A stretch of DNA of 64,000 bases from Pseudactinotalea sp. HY158 (GTDB lineage Bacteria > Actinomycetota > Actinomycetes > Actinomycetales > Beutenbergiaceae), in NCBI RefSeq assembly GCF_009660225.1, contig NZ_CP045920.1, positions 868,001 through 932,000 on the forward strand, read 5' to 3'. Made by a program: the position numbers and the translations under genes. Each line of letters opens with the position of its first letter. The stretch's first letter is position 1. Below are positions 17,501 through 26,032 of this stretch, piece after piece. Under the pieces are notes generated by a model that had not been told where the DNA came from, made no database searches, and was given only the letters and a program-made list of their open reading frames with translations.

Positions 17501-17516
17501 GGCGGAACGTTCCGCC
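17501..17516. promoter_or_regulatory. 16-bp palindrome upstream of CHC-type operon
   Basis: GGCGGAACGTTCCGCC is a perfect 16-bp palindrome, 38 bases before the start of the AroA-ligase fusion gene and just downstream of a TAGCGT -10-like hexamer (17483-17488). It has the size and symmetry of a dimeric repressor site. No regulator gene adjoins it. Confidence 0.5.
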
Positions 17517-17553: not shown

Positions 17554-20500
17554 ATGCGCTTATCAGTGGTCGGCAGCACCGCACGAGTGCACGGGGCGGT
17601 CGATGTTCCCAACTCCAAGTACCACGCCCATCGGGCGCTCATCCTCGCCTCCCTCGCCCCGGGAACGAGCCGGATATCGGGGATGAGCGACGCCCGGCAC
17701 GTGCGCTACACGGTGTCGCTGCTGCGCTCCCTGGGGATCCGCATCGATCACGAGGACGATGCGTTCGTGGTCCACGGCCGCCGCTATCACGCCCGGCACG
17801 AGACCATCTCGGCGGGCAGCTCCGGCTCGACCCTGTACTTCATGGTCGGGCTCGCCGCGCTCGCCGACGCCCCGCTCACGGTGACCGCCCAGAAGTACTT
17901 CCGGCGCCGCCCCATCGGGCCCCTGCTCCAGGCACTCCGCGACCTCGGCCTCGACGTCTCGTCCGCGACGGACTGCCCGCCGATCCGAGTCGGTGCCGGC
18001 CGGCCACGGGGCGGCCGCGTGCACATCGACGGCATGCTCTCCCAGTGGATCTCGGCCCTGCTGCTCGTGGCCCCCTTCGCCTCGGAGCCCACCGAGATCG
18101 TCGTCGACGGACCCCTGAACGAACGCACCTACATCGACCTGACGATCCGCATGATGGCGCGCTTCGGGCTCACCGTGACGGCCGCCGCCGACGGGCGGCG
18201 CTACCGGATCGAGCCCGGTCAGAGTGCTCGGCCCACGGATCTGCGCCTGCCGCCGGACATCGGATCGGCGGCCTTCGGCCTGGCGGTGGCGGCGCTGCGG
18301 CCGAGCGACGTGCTCCTGCGGGGGCTCACCCGCGCGGGCTCCGACGGCGTCGATCATCCGGAGGCGGGGTTCCTCGACGTGCTCGGCGAGATGGGCGTGC
18401 CGATGAGCGTGGACCGGGAGGCGGGCGGACTGCGGATCCAGCACGACGGCGTGCGCCTGCGGCCGGTCGACATCGACTGCCGGGCCATGCCGGACATGCT
18501 CCCGATCCTGGCGACCCTCACGTGCCGGGCCGACGGGGACAGCGTGCTGCGCAACGTCGAGCACGTGCGGTTGAAGGAGTCCGACCGGGTCGTCTCCATG
18601 CTGCAGCTCAACGAGATGGGCGGCCTGCTCCGGCTCGACGGCGGTGACCTGCACGTGCGCGGGGTCGACTCGCTGCGCAGCGCCCACCTGTCCTCGTTCA
18701 ACGACCACCGGGTGCTCATGTCGCTGTCCGTGGCGGCGGCGGCCGCCGAGGGACGCTCCACGCTCACGTTCCCCACCGCGTACCGGATCTCCTACCCGCA
18801 GTTCCTCGAGGCGATGCAGACCCTGCACGTGGACATGGAGGTCGAGCCCGACCTCGCCGATCCGGGCGGGCGCCGCCGGCCGGCGCGGGTGAGCGGGGCC
18901 GTGGAGAACGAGGAGAACGCGGCCCGGGTGACCGGACCCGAATGGGTGCGCCGCTGGGCCCGGGAGAAGCCGCACGCCCTCGCCGTGGTCGACGTCGCCG
19001 GCGACCGGACCGACCACGTCAGTTGGCGCGAACTGGACGCCGAGGGGGACGCCGCGGCCGCCGTGCTGCTCGGGCTCGGGGTGCGCCCCGGCGACCGCGT
19101 GGCCGTGCAGCTGCCCAATCGGCGCGAGTTCGTGGTCGCCGCGCTCGGGGCTATGCGCATCGGCGCGGTCATCTGCCCGATCATGCCGATCTTCCGGCAA
19201 CGGGAGGTGGCCGACGCGCTCGCACGCACCGGTGCGCGGGTGCTCATCGTGATCGACAACTACCGTGGCCGACAGCACGATCGGGAGGTCGCCGAGATCC
19301 TCGAGGGAGAGCAGGGCGGGGCGCTTCCGCTGCGGCACGTGCTCGTGCTCCACGGCACGCCCGGCACCGGACACGTGCTCCCGCGCTGCGGCCACCCCGG
19401 CGTGACCTGGCAGCCCTGGCACCGGGAGATGGCCGTCGCCCGGCCCGACCGGGCGGCGATCGACGACGTCGCGCCCCATCCCGCCGACCCCGCCCAGCTG
19501 CTGCTCACCTCGGGAACCTCCGGGGAGCCGAAGGGGGTCGTGCATCGGCACGGCACCCTGAGCCGCGCCGCCTGGATGGAGGTGGAACACCTCCGGCTCA
19601 ACTCCTCGGACTCGATCTTCGTGCCCTCGCCGCTGGCCCACCAGACCGGCTTCCTCTACGGCATGTGGCTCGCGTTCACGCTCGGGGTGCCGCAGATCCT
19701 CCAGGCCACCTGGGATCCGGAACGGGCGCTGCGCGCACTGAACGACTGGGACGGCACGTTCGTGCAGGCGGCCACCCCGTTCCTGAGCGACCTCGTGCAC
19801 GAGGTGGAGGCGGGTGGGCTCCGCCCGCGGGCGCTGCGGATCTTCGTGGCCACGGGCGCCGCGGTGCCGCGGGCGCTGGCGGAACGGGCCACCCGGGTCC
19901 TGGGTGCCGGCGTCTGTGGGGCGTTCGGGACGACCGAGACCGGCCTCGCGACGCTCGGCTCCCCGGACGATCCGGCCGCGCGCGCCTGGGGGACCGACGG
20001 CCGGGCGCTCGCGGGCATCGGGATCCGGGTCGTGGACGATGGGGGCCGGCGCGTCTCGGCCGGGGTCGAGGGACACTTCGAGCTCAGCAGCCCGACCGTC
20101 TTCGACGGGTACCTCGACCGCCCGGACCTGACGGCCGAGGTGATCGCCGCGGACGGCTGGTACCGCACGGGGGACCTGGCCACGATCGACGCGGACGGAT
20201 ACCTTCGCATCACCGGCCGGGTCCGCGACGTCGTCAACCGCGGCGGCGAGAAGATCCCGGTCTCCGAGATCGAGCAGCTCCTGCACACGCTCGAGGGTGT
20301 GGAGGAGGTCGCCATCGTCGCGATGCCGGATGCGCGGCTGGGGGAGCGGGCCTGCGCGTTCGTGGTCCCCGCGGCCGGCGCCCGGGTGACGTTCCGCACG
20401 ATGCAGCGCTTCCTCGACGACGCGCGGGTCGCCAAACAGTACTGGCCCGAACGGCTCGAGGTCGTCGAAGAGCTCCCCCGCAACGCCGTCGGAAAGGTCC

Positions 20501-20706
20501 AGAAGTTCCGGCTGCGCGAGGAGGCGGCACAGTTCACGCACCAGCGGTTCGAGATGCTCACATCACCGGTGAAGGAGAACGAGGACGATGGCAGCGACGT
20601 CAACGATGGAGCACCAGGCCCCCGGCGGGCGGGAAGGGCGGATCGACCGACGCGAGTTCGAGCAGATTCTCGGGCAGGTGACCGCCTGGGTGGATGGCCC
20701 CGGTGA
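17554..20706 (+). CDS. EPSP-synthase-like domain fused to acyl-CoA ligase
   Basis: A 1050-residue fusion. Residues 1-445 are EPSP-synthase (AroA)-like: PNSKYHAHRALILASL keeps the Lys22 and Arg27 positions, then LSQWISALLL, DCRAMPDMLPILATL (catalytic Asp308), HVRLKESDRV and FNDHRVLM. Ser23 is Tyr, and the lysine equivalent to E. coli Lys411 is Ile412 in RISYP, so the reaction may not be canonical. Residues 455-1015 are an AMP-forming ligase with TSGTSGEPKG, WYRTGDLATIDADGYLRITGR and the GKVQKF lysine loop, close to cyclohexanecarboxylate-CoA ligases. No stop separates the halves. Start ATG 17554 has AAGGA upstream. The last 35 residues overlap the next gene out of frame. Inferred role: early shikimate-derived steps and CoA activation in CHC-CoA synthesis. 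Confidence 0.85.
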   Translation: MRLSVVGSTARVHGAVDVPNSKYHAHRALILASLAPGTSRISGMSDARHVRYTVSLLRSLGIRIDHEDDAFVVHGRRYHARHETISAGSSGSTLYFMVGLAALADAPLTVTAQKYFRRRPIGPLLQALRDLGLDVSSATDCPPIRVGAGRPRGGRVHIDGMLSQWISALLLVAPFASEPTEIVVDGPLNERTYIDLTIRMMARFGLTVTAAADGRRYRIEPGQSARPTDLRLPPDIGSAAFGLAVAALRPSDVLLRGLTRAGSDGVDHPEAGFLDVLGEMGVPMSVDREAGGLRIQHDGVRLRPVDIDCRAMPDMLPILATLTCRADGDSVLRNVEHVRLKESDRVVSMLQLNEMGGLLRLDGGDLHVRGVDSLRSAHLSSFNDHRVLMSLSVAAAAAEGRSTLTFPTAYRISYPQFLEAMQTLHVDMEVEPDLADPGGRRRPARVSGAVENEENAARVTGPEWVRRWAREKPHALAVVDVAGDRTDHVSWRELDAEGDAAAAVLLGLGVRPGDRVAVQLPNRREFVVAALGAMRIGAVICPIMPIFRQREVADALARTGARVLIVIDNYRGRQHDREVAEILEGEQGGALPLRHVLVLHGTPGTGHVLPRCGHPGVTWQPWHREMAVARPDRAAIDDVAPHPADPAQLLLTSGTSGEPKGVVHRHGTLSRAAWMEVEHLRLNSSDSIFVPSPLAHQTGFLYGMWLAFTLGVPQILQATWDPERALRALNDWDGTFVQAATPFLSDLVHEVEAGGLRPRALRIFVATGAAVPRALAERATRVLGAGVCGAFGTTETGLATLGSPDDPAARAWGTDGRALAGIGIRVVDDGGRRVSAGVEGHFELSSPTVFDGYLDRPDLTAEVIAADGWYRTGDLATIDADGYLRITGRVRDVVNRGGEKIPVSEIEQLLHTLEGVEEVAIVAMPDARLGERACAFVVPAAGARVTFRTMQRFLDDARVAKQYWPERLEVVEELPRNAVGKVQKFRLREEAAQFTHQRFEMLTSPVKENEDDGSDVNDGAPGPRRAGRADRPTRVRADSRAGDRLGGWPR

Positions 20707-21811
20707 GGCCTGGTCCGAGGAGATCGAACGGTCCGGACACGTGCCCCGTGAACTGTTCGAGGAGATCAGGCGGCACGGCTTCCTCGGCCTGGCGGCCCCG
20801 GTCGAACTCGGCGGCCGGGGACTGGGCTTCACCCAGTGGATGAGACTCATCGAGGAGTTCTCCCGATCGCACGCCTCGATCCGGATGCTCGTGCACGTGA
20901 TCAACGGCACCTGGCGGTCGATGAACCCGCACGCCACGCCGGCGCAGCGGGAGCGGTTCGTGCGCCCGTCGGTCGCCGGCGACCTGCTCATCGCGTTCAC
21001 GCTCACCGAGCCCGGCAACGGCACCGGGGCCGACCTGACCAGCCGGGTCCGGCGCGACGGCGACACCTACTACCTGACCGGGCGCAAGCACCTCATCACG
21101 TTCGGGGCGCACTGCGACTACTGGCTGCTGTTCGCCCGGCTCGAGGGGAGCACGGGCAGCGACGGCACGGTGGCGCTCCTCGTCGCCCGGGACTCGCCCG
21201 GCGTCACGGTCGAGGACACCTCGGACACGATGGGGGTGCGCGGCACGGACCACGCGAGCCTCACGTTCGTCAACACGCCGGTGCCGGTGGCACACCGGCT
21301 CGGCGAGGAGGGAGACGGGCTCGCGATCGCGCTGGGCGGATTCCTCACGCCCAGCCGCATCTCCGTGGCGATGAGCTGCGTCGGGTTGGCCGAGCGCGCC
21401 CAGCAACTCGCGGTCGACTACGCCCGCGGTCGCGTCACCTTCGGCAAGCCGATCGCCTCGCGGCAGGCGATCGCGTTCATGATCGCCGACAACGAGGCGG
21501 AGATCGAGGCGGCGCGGGCCCTGACCATGCACGCGGCCCGGCAGTGGGAGGACGGCTCGGATCGCGCGTCCGCGCTCTCCTCGATGGCCAAGCTCACGGC
21601 CGTCGACATGCTCACCCGGGTCACCGACCGGGCCCTGCAGATCCACGGCGGCTCCGGCTACTGGAAGAGCGCGCCGATCGAGCGGGTGTACCGGGATGCG
21701 CGCGCGCAACGCTTCGAGGAGGGCACGAACGAGATCCAGCGCACCGTCATCGCCCGCGACGTGCTCGCCCGAGCCGACCAGGCCCGCCCGATCGAGGAGG
21801 CCGGCGCGTGA
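20588..21811 (+). CDS. acyl-CoA dehydrogenase (CHC-CoA pathway type)
   Basis: A 407-residue acyl-CoA dehydrogenase. FTLTEPGNGTGADLTSR is the FAD/substrate signature, followed by YYLTGRKHLITFGAHCDYWLLF, QALQIHGGSGYW-like ALQIHGGSGYW and RFEEGTNEIQRTVIARDVL, whose EGTNE glutamate is the catalytic base. In Streptomyces CHC-CoA clusters a homologue introduces a ring double bond for isomerisation or aromaticity-avoiding dehydration steps. The ATG at 20588 has AAGGAGAACGAGG upstream; it lies inside the end of the fusion gene, an unusually long overlap of 119 bases. It overlaps the next gene by four bases, so translation is coupled. Confidence 0.88.
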   Translation: MAATSTMEHQAPGGREGRIDRREFEQILGQVTAWVDGPGEAWSEEIERSGHVPRELFEEIRRHGFLGLAAPVELGGRGLGFTQWMRLIEEFSRSHASIRMLVHVINGTWRSMNPHATPAQRERFVRPSVAGDLLIAFTLTEPGNGTGADLTSRVRRDGDTYYLTGRKHLITFGAHCDYWLLFARLEGSTGSDGTVALLVARDSPGVTVEDTSDTMGVRGTDHASLTFVNTPVPVAHRLGEEGDGLAIALGGFLTPSRISVAMSCVGLAERAQQLAVDYARGRVTFGKPIASRQAIAFMIADNEAEIEAARALTMHAARQWEDGSDRASALSSMAKLTAVDMLTRVTDRALQIHGGSGYWKSAPIERVYRDARAQRFEEGTNEIQRTVIARDVLARADQARPIEEAGA

Positions 21812-22668
21812 GCGCCCCGGGCGAGGGCCGCCCATCCGATCCGCACCACGGCGGTGAGCACGCCGGCCGGATCGCGGTCGTCACCGGCGCCTCCCGCGGC
21901 ATCGGCCGCACCCTCGCGCTGATGCTCGGCCGGCAGGGGGCCACGGTCGTCGTGAACTACCGCACGAATTCGGAACTCGCCGCCGAGGTGGTCGCCGAGC
22001 TGCGCCGGTCCGGAGGGGAGGGCATCGCCGTGCGGGCCGACCTGGAGAACCCCGAGGAGATCGTGCGCCTGTTCGAGACCGTCGCCGCCGAATACGGTCG
22101 GATCGACTACTTCGTGAACAACGCGGCCGCGTCCGCGTTCAAGCGCGTGCTCGACCTGCGCACCCACCATCTCGACCGCTCCTATGCGATGAACGTGCGA
22201 CCGTTCGTCCTCGGCGCCCAGGAGGCGGTCAAGCTCATGGACCGGGGCGGGCGCATCGTCGCGGTCTCCAGCTACGGCAGCATGCGTGCCTTCGCCACCT
22301 ACGCGCTGCTCGGCTCCTACAAGGCCACGGTGGAGTCGTTCATCCGGTACATGGCCGTGGAGTTCGCCGGCTACGGGATCACGGTCAACGGGGTGAACGG
22401 CGGGCTCATCGAATCGGACTCCCTCGACTACTTCTACTCCCTGCCGGGCATGGCACCGATGCCGGCGGTGATCGAGACGATCCCGCTCAGGCGCGCGGGC
22501 ACCGCGGCGGACATGGCCAACGCGATCGACTTCCTGCTCTCCGAACGGGCCGCCTACATCACGGGCCAGACGCTCGTCGTCGACGGCGGCATGACGATCT
22601 CGGCCGCCCCGTACTATCACGACACGTCCAGCCCGCTCGGGCTGCCGGAGCGGCCCGGGCGGGAGTGA
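21808..22668 (+). CDS. SDR enoyl-CoA reductase, ChcA/FabL-like
   Basis: A 286-residue short-chain dehydrogenase. VVTGASRGIGRTLAL is the NADP-binding loop and VNNAAASAFKRVLDL the NNAA motif. The catalytic region is VSSYGSMRAFATYALLGSYKAT: a Tyr is followed six residues later by Lys (Y-x6-K), the spacing of enoyl reductases such as FabI/FabL, not the Y-x3-K of ketoreductases. This suits 1-cyclohexenylcarbonyl-CoA reductase (ChcA), which reduces ring enoyl-CoAs in CHC-CoA biosynthesis. The GTG at 21808 overlaps the dehydrogenase stop (GTGA). Specific identity as ChcA is inferred from context. Confidence 0.83.
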   Translation: MSAPGEGRPSDPHHGGEHAGRIAVVTGASRGIGRTLALMLGRQGATVVVNYRTNSELAAEVVAELRRSGGEGIAVRADLENPEEIVRLFETVAAEYGRIDYFVNNAAASAFKRVLDLRTHHLDRSYAMNVRPFVLGAQEAVKLMDRGGRIVAVSSYGSMRAFATYALLGSYKATVESFIRYMAVEFAGYGITVNGVNGGLIESDSLDYFYSLPGMAPMPAVIETIPLRRAGTAADMANAIDFLLSERAAYITGQTLVVDGGMTISAAPYYHDTSSPLGLPERPGRE

Positions 22669-22674
22669 ACCGTC

Positions 22675-24807
22675 ATGACCTCCCCATCGACCGCCTACCC
22701 CACGGCGCGACGTCCGGTCGCGATCGGCACGTTGACCCTGCCGCACCGGATCGTCATGGGGTCGATGCACCTGAACCGGGAGACCGGCGACCCGGGCGCC
22801 CTCGCCGAGTTCTACGCGACCCGGGCCCGCGGCGGGGCCGGCCTCATCGTCACCGGCGGAGCCGCCGTCTCCCGGGTGGGCGCGGGCGGGCCCGGCTACG
22901 CACTGATCAATGACGACGCCCACGCGCCCGTGTGGGCGCGTGTCACCCGGGAGGTGCACGAGGCGGGTGGGCTCATCGCGCTGCAGCTGTTCCACGCGGG
23001 CCGGTACGCCCACGAGTCGACGTTCGGCCTGCGGCCGGTGGCGCCCTCGGCGGTCTACTCCCGGTTCTCCCGGTGCGAGCCGGTGGCGCTGACGGAGGAG
23101 GGCATCGCCGACACGATCGAGGCGTTCGCGGCGGGCGCGGCCCGGGCGTTCGAGCTCGGGTTCGACGCGGTCGAGGTCATGGCCTCCGAGGGGTACCTGC
23201 TCAACCAGTTCGCCTCACCGCTGACGAACCGGCGCGACGACGCCTGGGGCGGGGACGCGGCCCGGCGTCGACGGTTCCCGGTCGCGGTGGTCGGCGCGGT
23301 CCGCGGGGCCGCGGGCACCGGGCCGGTGCTCGTGCGGATGTCGGGTGCGGACCTGATGCCGGGCTCCTCGACGCCCGAGGAGACCGGCGCGCTCGCCGTC
23401 GACCTCGTCCGGGCCGGCGCCGACGCCCTCGACATCGGGATCGGATGGCACGAGTCGCCGGTGCCGAGCGTCCAGTCCCTCGTGCCGCACGGGGTCTGGG
23501 CCGGGGTCGCCGCGGGCATCCGGGGCGTGCTCGCGGGCGCCGGCGCCGCCGTGCCCGTCATCGCCGCGGGCCGGGTCAACACCCTCGCGCAGGCCGAGGA
23601 GATCCTCGCCGCGGGAGCGGCCGACCTCGTGTCCATGGCGCGCCCGTTCCTCGCGGATCCGGCGATCGTGGCCCGGTCCTTCGCCGGCCGGCCAGAGCTG
23701 GTGAACACGTGCATCGGCTGCAACGAGGCGTGCATCGACCGGTCGTTCGGGACCGCCGCGGTCTCGTGCCTGGTCAATCCCCGGGCCGGTCGCGAACTCG
23801 ACTATCCGGCGTCACCGGTGGACGTGGTCGACCGGGTGGACCGGGCCCAGGCCCGGGCCGGGCGCCGGCGGCGCGTGGCGGTCGTCGGCGGCGGCCCGGC
23901 CGGGATGGAGGCCGCCCGGGCCGCGGCCGCGAACGGTGCCGACGTCACCCTCATCGAATCGGGCCGGCGGATCGGGGGACAGTTCCTCCTCGCCGGGCTC
24001 GTGCCGGGCAAGTCGGACTTCCTCGAGACCGTGCGGTACTTCGAGAACGAGCTCGCCCGGCTCGGGGTCGGCGTGCGGCTGGGGGAGGAGGTCCGCGGAG
24101 CCGCCGGGGCGGACATGCTCGCGGGGTTCGACCACGTCGTCCTCGCCACCGGCGTGCGTCCCCGCCGGGTCGAGATCGACCACGACGGATCCGCACGCCT
24201 CCTCGACTACCGGGCCGCGTTCGCCGATCCGGGCGCGCTCGGCCGGCGCGTGGCGGTCGTCGGGGCCGGCGGCATCGGCGTCGACCTGGCCCACCTCCTC
24301 GCGGAGCCCGCGCCCACCTCGGCCGCGGCCGCGAGCCTGCTGTTCCTCGCCCGCCACGGCCTGGCTCCCGGCGCCGAGCCACCCGCCACCGGCCCGGCCC
24401 GGCAGGTGACGATCATGCGCAGGTCCGGGTCGATCGGCGCGGGGATGGGCGTGAGCACCCGCTGGGCCGCCGTGCAGGCGATCCGGGCCGCCGGCGTCGT
24501 CACCCTGTCCGGGGTGACCTACGAGTCGATCGACGCCACCGGGGTGCACATCCGCCACGACGGCGCCCGCCGCCTCGTGCCGGCCGACACCGTCGTGATC
24601 GCCGCCGGGCAGGAACCGCACGCGCCCCTCGCCCCCCGCCTCACGGCCGCCGGAATCCCCGTCACGGTCATCGGCGGCGCCCGGAGCACCGCCGGCCTGC
24701 GCGCGGTGGAGGCGTTCGAGGAGGGGCTCCGGGCGGGCACCGCCGCCGCGACCGCCCCGCCCGACCAGGGCACCGTCCGCACGAGAGAGGCAGCGCAGCA
24801 TGGATGA
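22675..24807 (+). CDS. 2,4-dienoyl-CoA reductase-like flavin/Fe-S oxidoreductase
   Basis: A 710-residue old-yellow-enzyme-type protein with the FadH architecture. Residues 1-340 are an FMN TIM barrel (PHRIVMGSMHLNRE, QLFHAGRY, VEVMASEGYLLNQF); a cysteine cluster C-x2-C-x3-C-x11-C starting at NTCIGC binds 4Fe-4S; the rest is an FAD/NAD(P)H half with VAVVGGGPAGMEAARAA and VAVVGAGGIGVDLAHLL. Such enzymes reduce conjugated dienoyl-CoAs; a homologue is present in CHC-CoA clusters, where several ring double bonds must be reduced. It starts six bases after the SDR gene and overlaps the ketosynthase gene by eight bases. Confidence 0.88.
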   Translation: MTSPSTAYPTARRPVAIGTLTLPHRIVMGSMHLNRETGDPGALAEFYATRARGGAGLIVTGGAAVSRVGAGGPGYALINDDAHAPVWARVTREVHEAGGLIALQLFHAGRYAHESTFGLRPVAPSAVYSRFSRCEPVALTEEGIADTIEAFAAGAARAFELGFDAVEVMASEGYLLNQFASPLTNRRDDAWGGDAARRRRFPVAVVGAVRGAAGTGPVLVRMSGADLMPGSSTPEETGALAVDLVRAGADALDIGIGWHESPVPSVQSLVPHGVWAGVAAGIRGVLAGAGAAVPVIAAGRVNTLAQAEEILAAGAADLVSMARPFLADPAIVARSFAGRPELVNTCIGCNEACIDRSFGTAAVSCLVNPRAGRELDYPASPVDVVDRVDRAQARAGRRRRVAVVGGGPAGMEAARAAAANGADVTLIESGRRIGGQFLLAGLVPGKSDFLETVRYFENELARLGVGVRLGEEVRGAAGADMLAGFDHVVLATGVRPRRVEIDHDGSARLLDYRAAFADPGALGRRVAVVGAGGIGVDLAHLLAEPAPTSAAAASLLFLARHGLAPGAEPPATGPARQVTIMRRSGSIGAGMGVSTRWAAVQAIRAAGVVTLSGVTYESIDATGVHIRHDGARRLVPADTVVIAAGQEPHAPLAPRLTAAGIPVTVIGGARSTAGLRAVEAFEEGLRAGTAAATAPPDQGTVRTREAAQHG

Positions 24808-26032
24808 TCGCGTCGTCATATCCGGCATCGGCTCCGTGACCCCGCTCGGCACCACGACCCGCCAGACCTGGGCGGGCCTGCTGGCGGGGCGCTCCGGCGT
24901 CGATCGGATCAGCCTGTTCGATCCGTCCGACCTGCCGACCCGGATCGCGGCCGAGGTGCACGGATTCGACGCCGGGGCATACCTGGCGCCGAAGCAGGCG
25001 AACCGGACGTCCCGGACCTCGCAGTTCGCCGTCGTCGCCGCCCGGGAGGCCGTCCGGGACGCCGGCCTGCCGGGCGACCTGTCCGAGACCGAGGCGGCCG
25101 TGATCCTCAACAGCGCCGTGTCGGGCTTCGCCGAGGTGCAGGAGGCGACCGAGGCGTTCCATTCCGGGGGCACCCGGCGGATCAGCCCGCGGTTCGTGCC
25201 CTCCTCGCTCACGAACATGCCCGCCTGCGAGATCGCGATCGACCTCGGCGTGCACGGGCCGGTCAACGCGAGCGCGCTCGCGTGCGCGAGCGGCGCCCAC
25301 GCGCTGGTGGAGGCGCGCCGGCTCGTGCTCTCCGGGGACGCCGACGTGGTGCTCGCCGGCGGCGCCGACGCCTCGATCACCCCGGTCATGTTCGCGGGCC
25401 TGAGTGCGATGCGGGCGCTCTCGCGCCGCAACGACTCGCCGGCCGAGGCGAGCCGCCCGTTCGACGCCGACCGGGACGGCTTCGTGTTCGGCGAGGGCGC
25501 GGTGGTCATGGTCGTCGAACGCCTCTCCCGCGCGCGGGCCCGGGGCGCGACCGGCTACGCCGAGATCCTCGGCGGGGCGCTCACGAGCGACGCCTTCAAC
25601 ATCGTCGCGCCGGAGCCGAGCGGGCGCTACGCCACCCGGGCGATCACCCGGGCCCTGCGTGCCGCCCGGCTCGACCCGGGCGACGTCGACCTCGTCTGCG
25701 CGCACGGCACGTCGACGAGGGCGAACGACCGCACCGAGACCGCCGCGCTCAGGCAGGCGCTCGGGGCCGCCGCCGACGACGTGGCCGTCTCCGCCCCCAA
25801 GTCCATGGTCGGCCACCTCATCGGCGCCGCCGGGGCCGTCGCCGGGCTCGTGTGCGCGCTCGCGATCAGCGAGGGAGTCATCCCGCCGACGCTCAACTAC
25901 ACCACCCCCGACCCCGACTGCGACCTGGACTACGTGCCCGGATGCGCGCGGGAGCAGTCGGTCCGGCACGCCTTCACGAACGCGTTCGGGTTCGGCGGGC
26001 AGAACTGCGTGGTCGCGTTCGGGGCGATCTGA
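24800..26032 (+). CDS. beta-ketoacyl-ACP synthase II (FabF-like)
   Basis: A 410-residue condensing enzyme with an intact Cys-His-His triad: Cys162 in ALACASGAHAL, His302 in CAHGTSTRAND and His339 in KSMVGHLIGAAGAV, plus the glycine-rich NAFGFGGQN gate. This is the KAS II layout with elongation activity on acyl-ACP. As last gene of the CHC-type operon it may be specialised for chains with a cyclohexyl end, or for extending the CHC starter. It overlaps the flavoenzyme gene by eight bases and has GAGAGAGG upstream. It converges with aldose 1-epimerase. Confidence 0.9.
   Translation: MDDRVVISGIGSVTPLGTTTRQTWAGLLAGRSGVDRISLFDPSDLPTRIAAEVHGFDAGAYLAPKQANRTSRTSQFAVVAAREAVRDAGLPGDLSETEAAVILNSAVSGFAEVQEATEAFHSGGTRRISPRFVPSSLTNMPACEIAIDLGVHGPVNASALACASGAHALVEARRLVLSGDADVVLAGGADASITPVMFAGLSAMRALSRRNDSPAEASRPFDADRDGFVFGEGAVVMVVERLSRARARGATGYAEILGGALTSDAFNIVAPEPSGRYATRAITRALRAARLDPGDVDLVCAHGTSTRANDRTETAALRQALGAAADDVAVSAPKSMVGHLIGAAGAVAGLVCALAISEGVIPPTLNYTTPDPDCDLDYVPGCAREQSVRHAFTNAFGFGGQNCVVAFGAI

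Follow-up and report, generated by a model that had tools for sequence, protein, structure and literature searches.

A fused EPSP-synthase-like and acyl-CoA ligase gene as probable entry enzyme of a shikimate-derived cyclohexyl lipid cassette in Pseudactinotalea sp. HY158

We analysed a stretch of 64,000 nucleotides from Pseudactinotalea sp. HY158 (NCBI RefSeq assembly GCF_009660225.1, contig NZ_CP045920.1, positions 868,001 to 932,000 of the forward strand; hereafter the window), in which one gene joins a 5-enolpyruvylshikimate-3-phosphate (EPSP) synthase-like domain to an AMP-forming acyl-CoA ligase. The fusion of the two in one frame is real and no assembly accident. We consider it likely that the fused gene supplies the first enzyme of a cassette of five genes leading from shikimate to cyclohexane- or cyclohexene-carbonyl-CoA, which would feed an omega-cyclohexyl fatty acid or a similar lipid. 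Acid- and heat-tolerant membranes, as well as several antibiotics, contain cyclohexane-carbonyl units derived from shikimate. Streptomyces and Alicyclobacillus are known to convert shikimate to cyclohexanecarbonyl-CoA (CHC-CoA), and the activities of the cassette fit this route; we know of no firm assignment of the enzyme that performs the first committed step. With an entry enzyme that is fused and whose altered site is fixed, this step and CoA activation could be assayed on a single protein.

One reading frame for two enzymes

The fused gene comprises the following parts:
17554..20706, + strand: fused gene, EPSP-synthase-like domain and AMP-forming acyl-CoA ligase, 1050 aa (open frame, Pfam, curated models, fused homologues)
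17578..18816, + strand: EPSP-synthase-like domain, aa 9-421, with altered shikimate 3-phosphate (S3P) site (PF00275, TIGR01356, residue map)
18826..18939, + strand: linker, about aa 425-462, differing among relatives, with coding-like G+C content at third codon positions (GC3) of 0.95 (alignment, GC3)
18949..20496, + strand: AMP-forming ligase domains, aa 466-854 and 905-981 (Pfam, best curated model, motif residues)
20554..20703, + strand: C-terminal tail, aa 1001-1050, overlapping the next gene, with low GC3 (alignment, GC3)

The frame runs uninterrupted on the + strand from an ATG at 17554 to a TGA ending at 20706, and encodes 1050 aa with a computed mass of 113.7 kDa. Pfam places EPSP_synthase at aa 9-421 (E = 1.9e-75), AMP-binding at aa 466-854 (8.2e-69) and AMP-binding_C at aa 905-981 (7.9e-11). 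The openness of the frame is weak evidence in itself, since the DNA is 73% GC and a frame of 992 aa lies across the same stretch on the opposite strand. When shuffled so that codon-position composition was preserved, 0 of 2000 sequences were open over 1050 codons. GC3 was 0.82-1.00 per 50-codon block from aa 1 to 1000, and its value in the linker matched both flanking domains. Because GC3 stays high in the linker, no shuffle stayed open and the fusion is conserved elsewhere, we conclude that the fusion is real; an assembly or frame error as its source was ruled out by the GC3 profile together with the conserved fusions. The tail has a GC3 of 0.60 and a counterpart in none of eight aligned relatives, and it runs into the start of the adjoining acyl-CoA dehydrogenase gene, as would be expected if the original stop had disappeared. 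An AlphaFold2 model from nine sequences (predicted local distance difference test 57, predicted template modelling score 0.41) was not used.

Fused homologues in other genomes

Fused homologues 55-62% identical to the window protein were found in Candidatus Eremiobacterota, in a Streptomyces-like genus and in the window's own order. In what follows, G numbers denote genomes and L numbers loci, and f34 is another actinobacterial family. Six patterns of eight residues were scanned against a named genome collection (84,980 species) and returned 21 stretches, 11 of them encoding a relative; all 11 lie in metagenome-assembled genomes (MAGs) of Candidatus Eremiobacterota, with both halves reached and best segments of 54-59% identity. 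At E <= 1e-80, 20 of 148 Eremiobacterota genomes had a fusion match, at 55-61% identity depending on the stretch. All 20 matches keep the domain order and are open across the junction: 16 span both halves and one is frame-shifted, while contig ends truncate the remaining three (G454 beyond aa 977, G458 ahead of aa 50, G580 beyond aa 777). The frameshift, in L050 of the MAG G460, lies inside the ligase part, away from the junction, and could be due to decay or assembly.

The wide searches scored few candidates per genome, so that a "ligase-only" result is valid at the stated thresholds alone. In 140 genomes of the Streptomyces-like genus (E <= 1e-90) we found two fused genes (G607 and G935, 61-62% identity), one EPSP-synthase-like fragment (G687) and three genomes with a ligase match only, and an overlapping draw of 101 genomes gave the same outcome minus G935. 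The 297 genomes of the window's order (E <= 1e-80) yielded two fused genes besides the window (G745 and G912, 60-62%) and ten ligase-only matches. Among the ranked matches listed for 58 relatives in the family and order, none extended across both halves; 44 plasmid records matched at E <= 1e-60, none covering >80% of the query.

A preliminary description of this DNA had placed the EPSP-synthase-like half and the ligase in a single polypeptide of about 113 kDa, and had proposed searching other genomes for this order of domains. The open frame, the Pfam domains, the conserved order and the GC3 across the junction agree with a single polypeptide, the computed mass agrees with that size, and the order recurs in 20/148 Eremiobacterota genomes, 2/140 genomes of the Streptomyces-like genus and 2/297 of the window's order besides the window itself.

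Two kinds of relative without the fusion were noted. An EPSP-synthase-like fragment in a Streptomyces-like genome (L072, 8962-9975) is 56% identical to aa 1-339, with one stop within the match and no ligase match within 20 kb; it looks decayed. In genus g16 of the window's order, G047 and eight others carry a ligase that shares 37-39% identity with the C-terminal half, and these nine genomes gave no first-half match at the same threshold.

Active site of the EPSP-synthase-like domain

Active-site positions were compared with those of E. coli AroA in 26 sequences, comprising 22 fused loci (the window and three incomplete loci included) and four unfused genes; a first pass with 20 sequences was the same at these positions. 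From E. coli EPSP-synthase structures, we take S169, S170 and S197 to be 3-phosphate contacts, S23 and R27 to be carboxylate contacts and N336 to bind S3P, whereas K22, D313 and E341 are presumably catalytic and R124, R344, R386 and K411 presumably belong to the catalytic or phosphoenolpyruvate (PEP) site. A literature search, with most subscription papers outside it, found no paper on these roles.

Unlike in AroA, the S3P-binding set (S23, S169, S170, S197, N336) is altered throughout. S23Y occurs in 25/25 rows (one row lacks the N-terminus), and a one-residue loss at S169/S170, S197E and N336H occur in 26/26. N94S, R100Y, P101F and K411I are likewise present in all 26 rows, and the window sequence has an Arg directly ahead of position K411. 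Within the catalytic and PEP set (K22, R124, D313, E341, R344, R386, K411), everything is kept but K411: K22, together with R27, in 25/25 rows, and R124, D313, E341, R344 and R386, together with G96, Q171, Y200, K340 and H385, in 26/26. The window domain has fold family, length, D313/E341/K22 and R124/R344/R386 in common with AroA, and differs from it in the changes listed above and in the fused ligase. A phosphate ligand is unlikely, because position 197 is Glu and one serine is gone, while retention of R27 points to a carboxylate that is free. Taken together, the altered phosphate site and the kept R27 suggest that the first domain takes unphosphorylated shikimate, acting on it before CoA attachment, and that it is no housekeeping AroA.

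It could be argued that the gene is a second ordinary AroA, making EPSP for aromatic amino acids, with an unrelated ligase fused to it. The first half does pass the TIGR01356 (AroA) cut-off (307.4 bits vs 287.25). Against this stand the S3P-site changes, which are fixed in every relative covering the positions, the acyl-CoA enzymes that accompany the gene in the loci read and the presence of another AroA-type gene in the genome (34% identity), and we regard an ordinary AroA as extremely improbable. Another AroA-type gene was also found in 10/11 Eremiobacterota genomes (E <= 1e-20). Given such a second gene, the fused domain is probably unneeded for aromatic amino acids. Score-based annotation would probably label the first half AroA; the motif KYHAHR and the Glu replacing S197 could serve as markers for finding such cassettes.

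The ligase half and the neighbouring genes

Among curated models, the C-terminal half scores best with the cyclohexanecarboxylate-CoA ligase AliA (TIGR03208, 455.1 bits over aa 475-989), although the score lies below the equivalog cut-off of 792.3. Four of the best five plasmid matches, at 40-43% identity, are annotated aliA. The half has the AMP-binding and AMP-binding_C domains and the core motifs of AMP-forming ligases of the ANL superfamily. Of the 22 fused rows, 21 have the core motif residues and only the frame-shifted L050 departs from them; another row ends before the last residue.

The remaining genes of the cassette lie downstream of the fused gene:
20588..21811, + strand: acyl-CoA dehydrogenase (ACAD) family protein (family models, Pfam, homologues beside the fusion)
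21808..22668, + strand: short-chain dehydrogenase/reductase (SDR), best curated model FabL, below cut-off (family models, Pfam)
22675..24807, + strand: old-yellow-enzyme (OYE) / FadH-like flavoprotein (family models, Pfam, homologues)
24800..26032, + strand: FabF-like beta-ketoacyl-acyl-carrier-protein synthase (KAS), C-H-K-H kept (family models, Pfam, residues)

ACAD homologues beside the fusion are 54-71% identical to the window copy (42% in one short cut piece). The KAS passes NF005589 (484.6 vs 387), falls just under TIGR03150 (493.7 vs 493.75) and has the catalytic residues C164, H304, K336 and H341, counted from Met. It is 59.5% identical to the KAS of G607 and 41.5% to the KAS beside the one FabH found in its own genome; within this genome, the comparison was limited to these two KAS.

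The gene order fusion-ACAD-SDR-OYE-KAS of the window recurs in G607 at 54-68% identity, and in G935 the fusion is followed by ACAD, SDR, OYE and then the contig end. In the flanks of 16 Eremiobacterota loci, ACAD, SDR and OYE follow the fusion in that order as far as the contigs reach, and a KAS (34-40%) lies ahead of the fusion in 14; the other two loci start at or near a contig end. Fusion, ACAD and OYE are present in G745 and G912 (L095, L096), where the cassettes adjoin genes resembling, by eye, EF-Tu and EF-G. The f34 genomes carry EPSP-synthase-like gene, ligase, ACAD and SDR. In one of them (L074, 5777-6793), an F420-dependent oxidoreductase of the TIGR03617 family comes after the SDR, where other lineages carry the OYE. 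A further AMP-forming ligase comes after the KAS in G607 (L071, 1214-2884).

A CHC-CoA cassette presumably consists of an EPSP-synthase-like enzyme, a ligase, an ACAD, an SDR (ChcA-type) and an OYE, and we take the Delta3,Delta2-enoyl-CoA isomerase ChcB to be part of it as well. The window matches the first five by family type only, and to that extent the CHC-type gene context recognised earlier is borne out by family resemblance. ChcB was not among the cassette genes, and no genome-wide search for it was made. The gene set of Streptomyces collinus is ansJKLM, chcA and chcB. Its cyclohexylcarbonyl-CoA cassette was reportedly described by Cropp et al. in 2000 (cited in PMC4581413). The chemistry, from shikimate to CHC-CoA, is presumed to be the same as in the window, the match being one of enzyme types; a difference is the FabF-like KAS present in the window. 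Among the matches listed in the literature search, no description of the fusion or of the S. collinus cassette was recognised.

The proposed pathway and its alternatives

We propose that the N-terminal domain would bind unphosphorylated shikimate and remove a ring hydroxyl, and that the C-terminal domain would adenylate the free carboxylate and transfer the product to CoA. The SDR, the OYE flavoprotein and the ACAD-type flavoprotein would then reduce and isomerise the ring on CoA, and the FabF-like enzyme would transfer the resulting acyl group to a fatty-acid chain, so that an omega-cyclohexyl fatty acid or a similar lipid is formed. The cassette probably primes omega-cyclohexyl fatty acids: these are the likeliest product because no frame of polyketide synthase (PKS) size lies nearby and a condensing enzyme belongs to the cassette.

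Several findings weigh against this pathway, in addition to the TIGR01356 score. The PEP-site residues R124, R344 and R386 are kept, though a simple dehydratase needs none of them; PEP-assisted elimination is a possibility that these arginines leave. ACAD, SDR and OYE each score under the cut-off of every curated model listed, so that family type is the sole basis of their assigned roles. In G745 and G912, the 20 kb read gave no match to SDR or KAS, and among the genes studied none was identified for the second and third dehydrations.

The ligase and the ACAD also bear on a catabolic reading, in which cyclohexanecarboxylate or shikimate-like acids would be activated by the ligase in order to be degraded, in the manner of AliA/AliB, while the EPSP-synthase-like half would run backwards or scavenge. 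AliA-AliB-BadK-BadH-BadI is a degradation route described in the literature, the ligase resembles AliA, and the ACAD resembles cyclohexanecarbonyl-CoA dehydrogenases (157-205 bits, below cut-offs). Yet the ACAD scores better against acryloyl-CoA reductase (258 bits, again below cut-off), no bad or ali gene, including any of BadK or BadI type, was recognised among the ten proteins Pfam-tested around the cassette, and the FabF-like KAS and the enoyl-reductase-like SDR indicate synthesis. We therefore consider degradation improbable.

A cyclohexyl starter for a secondary metabolite, in the style of ansatrienin or phoslactomycin, is a somewhat less improbable alternative to a membrane lipid, but still an unlikely one. 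According to two papers, CHC-CoA starts the phoslactomycin PKS and CHC-CoA cassettes serve doramectin (PMC4581413, PMC7496768), and the extra AMP-forming ligase in G607 would suit such a role. No PKS-sized frame was found, however, either in the window (longest frame 1181 aa; families were searched in the smaller part of the window) or in 52 kb around the G607 copy (longest frame 1011 aa, the fusion itself), and the occurrence in 20/148 Eremiobacterota genomes suggests a lineage trait.

Omega-cyclohexyl lipids, the preferred product of the cassette, have precedents in the literature: omega-alicyclic fatty acids and the corresponding genes, both reported from Sulfobacillus (PMC4378227); a high content in Alicyclobacillus acidocaldarius, where a cited title has omega-cyclohexyl fatty acids formed from shikimate (PMC3035248); and omega-cyclohexyl fatty acids in Curtobacterium pusillum and Propionibacterium cyclohexanicum (PMC3426160, PMC5023266). 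Our reading predicts cyclohexyl lipids in Eremiobacterota, known here from MAGs only. As a tentative extension, which we hold to be rather doubtful, the cassette may be a mobile, self-contained omega-cyclohexyl lipid module common to the uncultivated phylum Eremiobacterota and several actinobacteria, with a FabF-type enzyme replacing the FabH starter step. The entry enzyme of this module would be an EPSP synthase turned into a PEP-using dehydratase of free shikimate, in which enolpyruvyl transfer improves the hydroxyl as a leaving group before elimination.

Internal starts and upstream sequence

It had been suggested that an internal GTG near 18889 or 18928 could also give a free ligase. No Shine-Dalgarno-like sequence lies within 20 nt upstream of the GTG at 18889 or of the GTG at 18901, the position of the old ligase start. 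The GTG at 18928 has GAGGAG 12 nt upstream, and 12 nt is longer than the usual Shine-Dalgarno spacing. For the window and 14 Eremiobacterota rows, we listed start codons and Shine-Dalgarno-like sequences around the junction; at the homologous place, 12/14 of the Eremiobacterota rows have ATG, none of them with a Shine-Dalgarno-like sequence upstream. A free ligase made from an internal start, though still conceivable, is not supported.

A scan for promoters and terminators found none. A perfect 16-base palindrome, GGCGGAACGTTCCGCC, lies at 17501-17516, 37 bases ahead of the start codon of the fused gene, and is a possible candidate operator. With up to 3 mismatches it has two other matches in the window, within chance expectation. 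Its 12-base core was seen only in the window's own copy among the loci compared, and the 200 bases that precede the fusion in G607, G935, G745 and G912 contain no such palindrome.

Origin of the fusion

A search of 396 genomes in the phylum yielded, apart from the window, four f34 genomes in which two separate genes encode the halves (48-51% identity) and four genomes with a ligase-only match; within the order of f34, the same four of 39 genomes have the separate pair, and one more was ligase-only. The f34 pair has the same active-site pattern as the fused protein, and ACAD and SDR come next; unlike the window, it consists of two genes, and the 20 kb read contained neither an OYE nor a KAS match. 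In all four genomes (G142, G153, G164, G174), the stop of the EPSP-synthase-like gene overlaps the ligase start by 8 nt, which would make fusion through stop loss easy. The preliminary description took separate genes to be the arrangement in known CHC clusters, and the fusion to suggest channelling. Since both intact Streptomyces-like copies (E <= 1e-90) are fused, separate genes may not be the rule.

Trees were computed for each half, leaving out the cut or frame-shifted fused rows L044, L048 and L050 as well as G935. In the ligase tree, from which the earlier outgroups L034 and L068 and, at a prior stage, L033, L035, L069 and L070 were omitted, all 18 fused rows form one clade (100/100), with a long-branch warning attached to the tree. 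The four fused rows from actinobacteria group together (100/100), and their group lies within the Eremiobacterota rows (96/90), which is compatible with transfer and no proof of it. In the tree of the EPSP-synthase-like half, computed without the window genome's own AroA and with the very distant E. coli AroA as sole outgroup, the unfused f34 genes fall among the fused rows, where they join rows from Eremiobacterota (81/99). The two trees do not settle the direction, fusion or fission. Most probably, two translationally coupled genes became fused when the stop separating them was lost, and the fusion would hold the two activities at 1:1.

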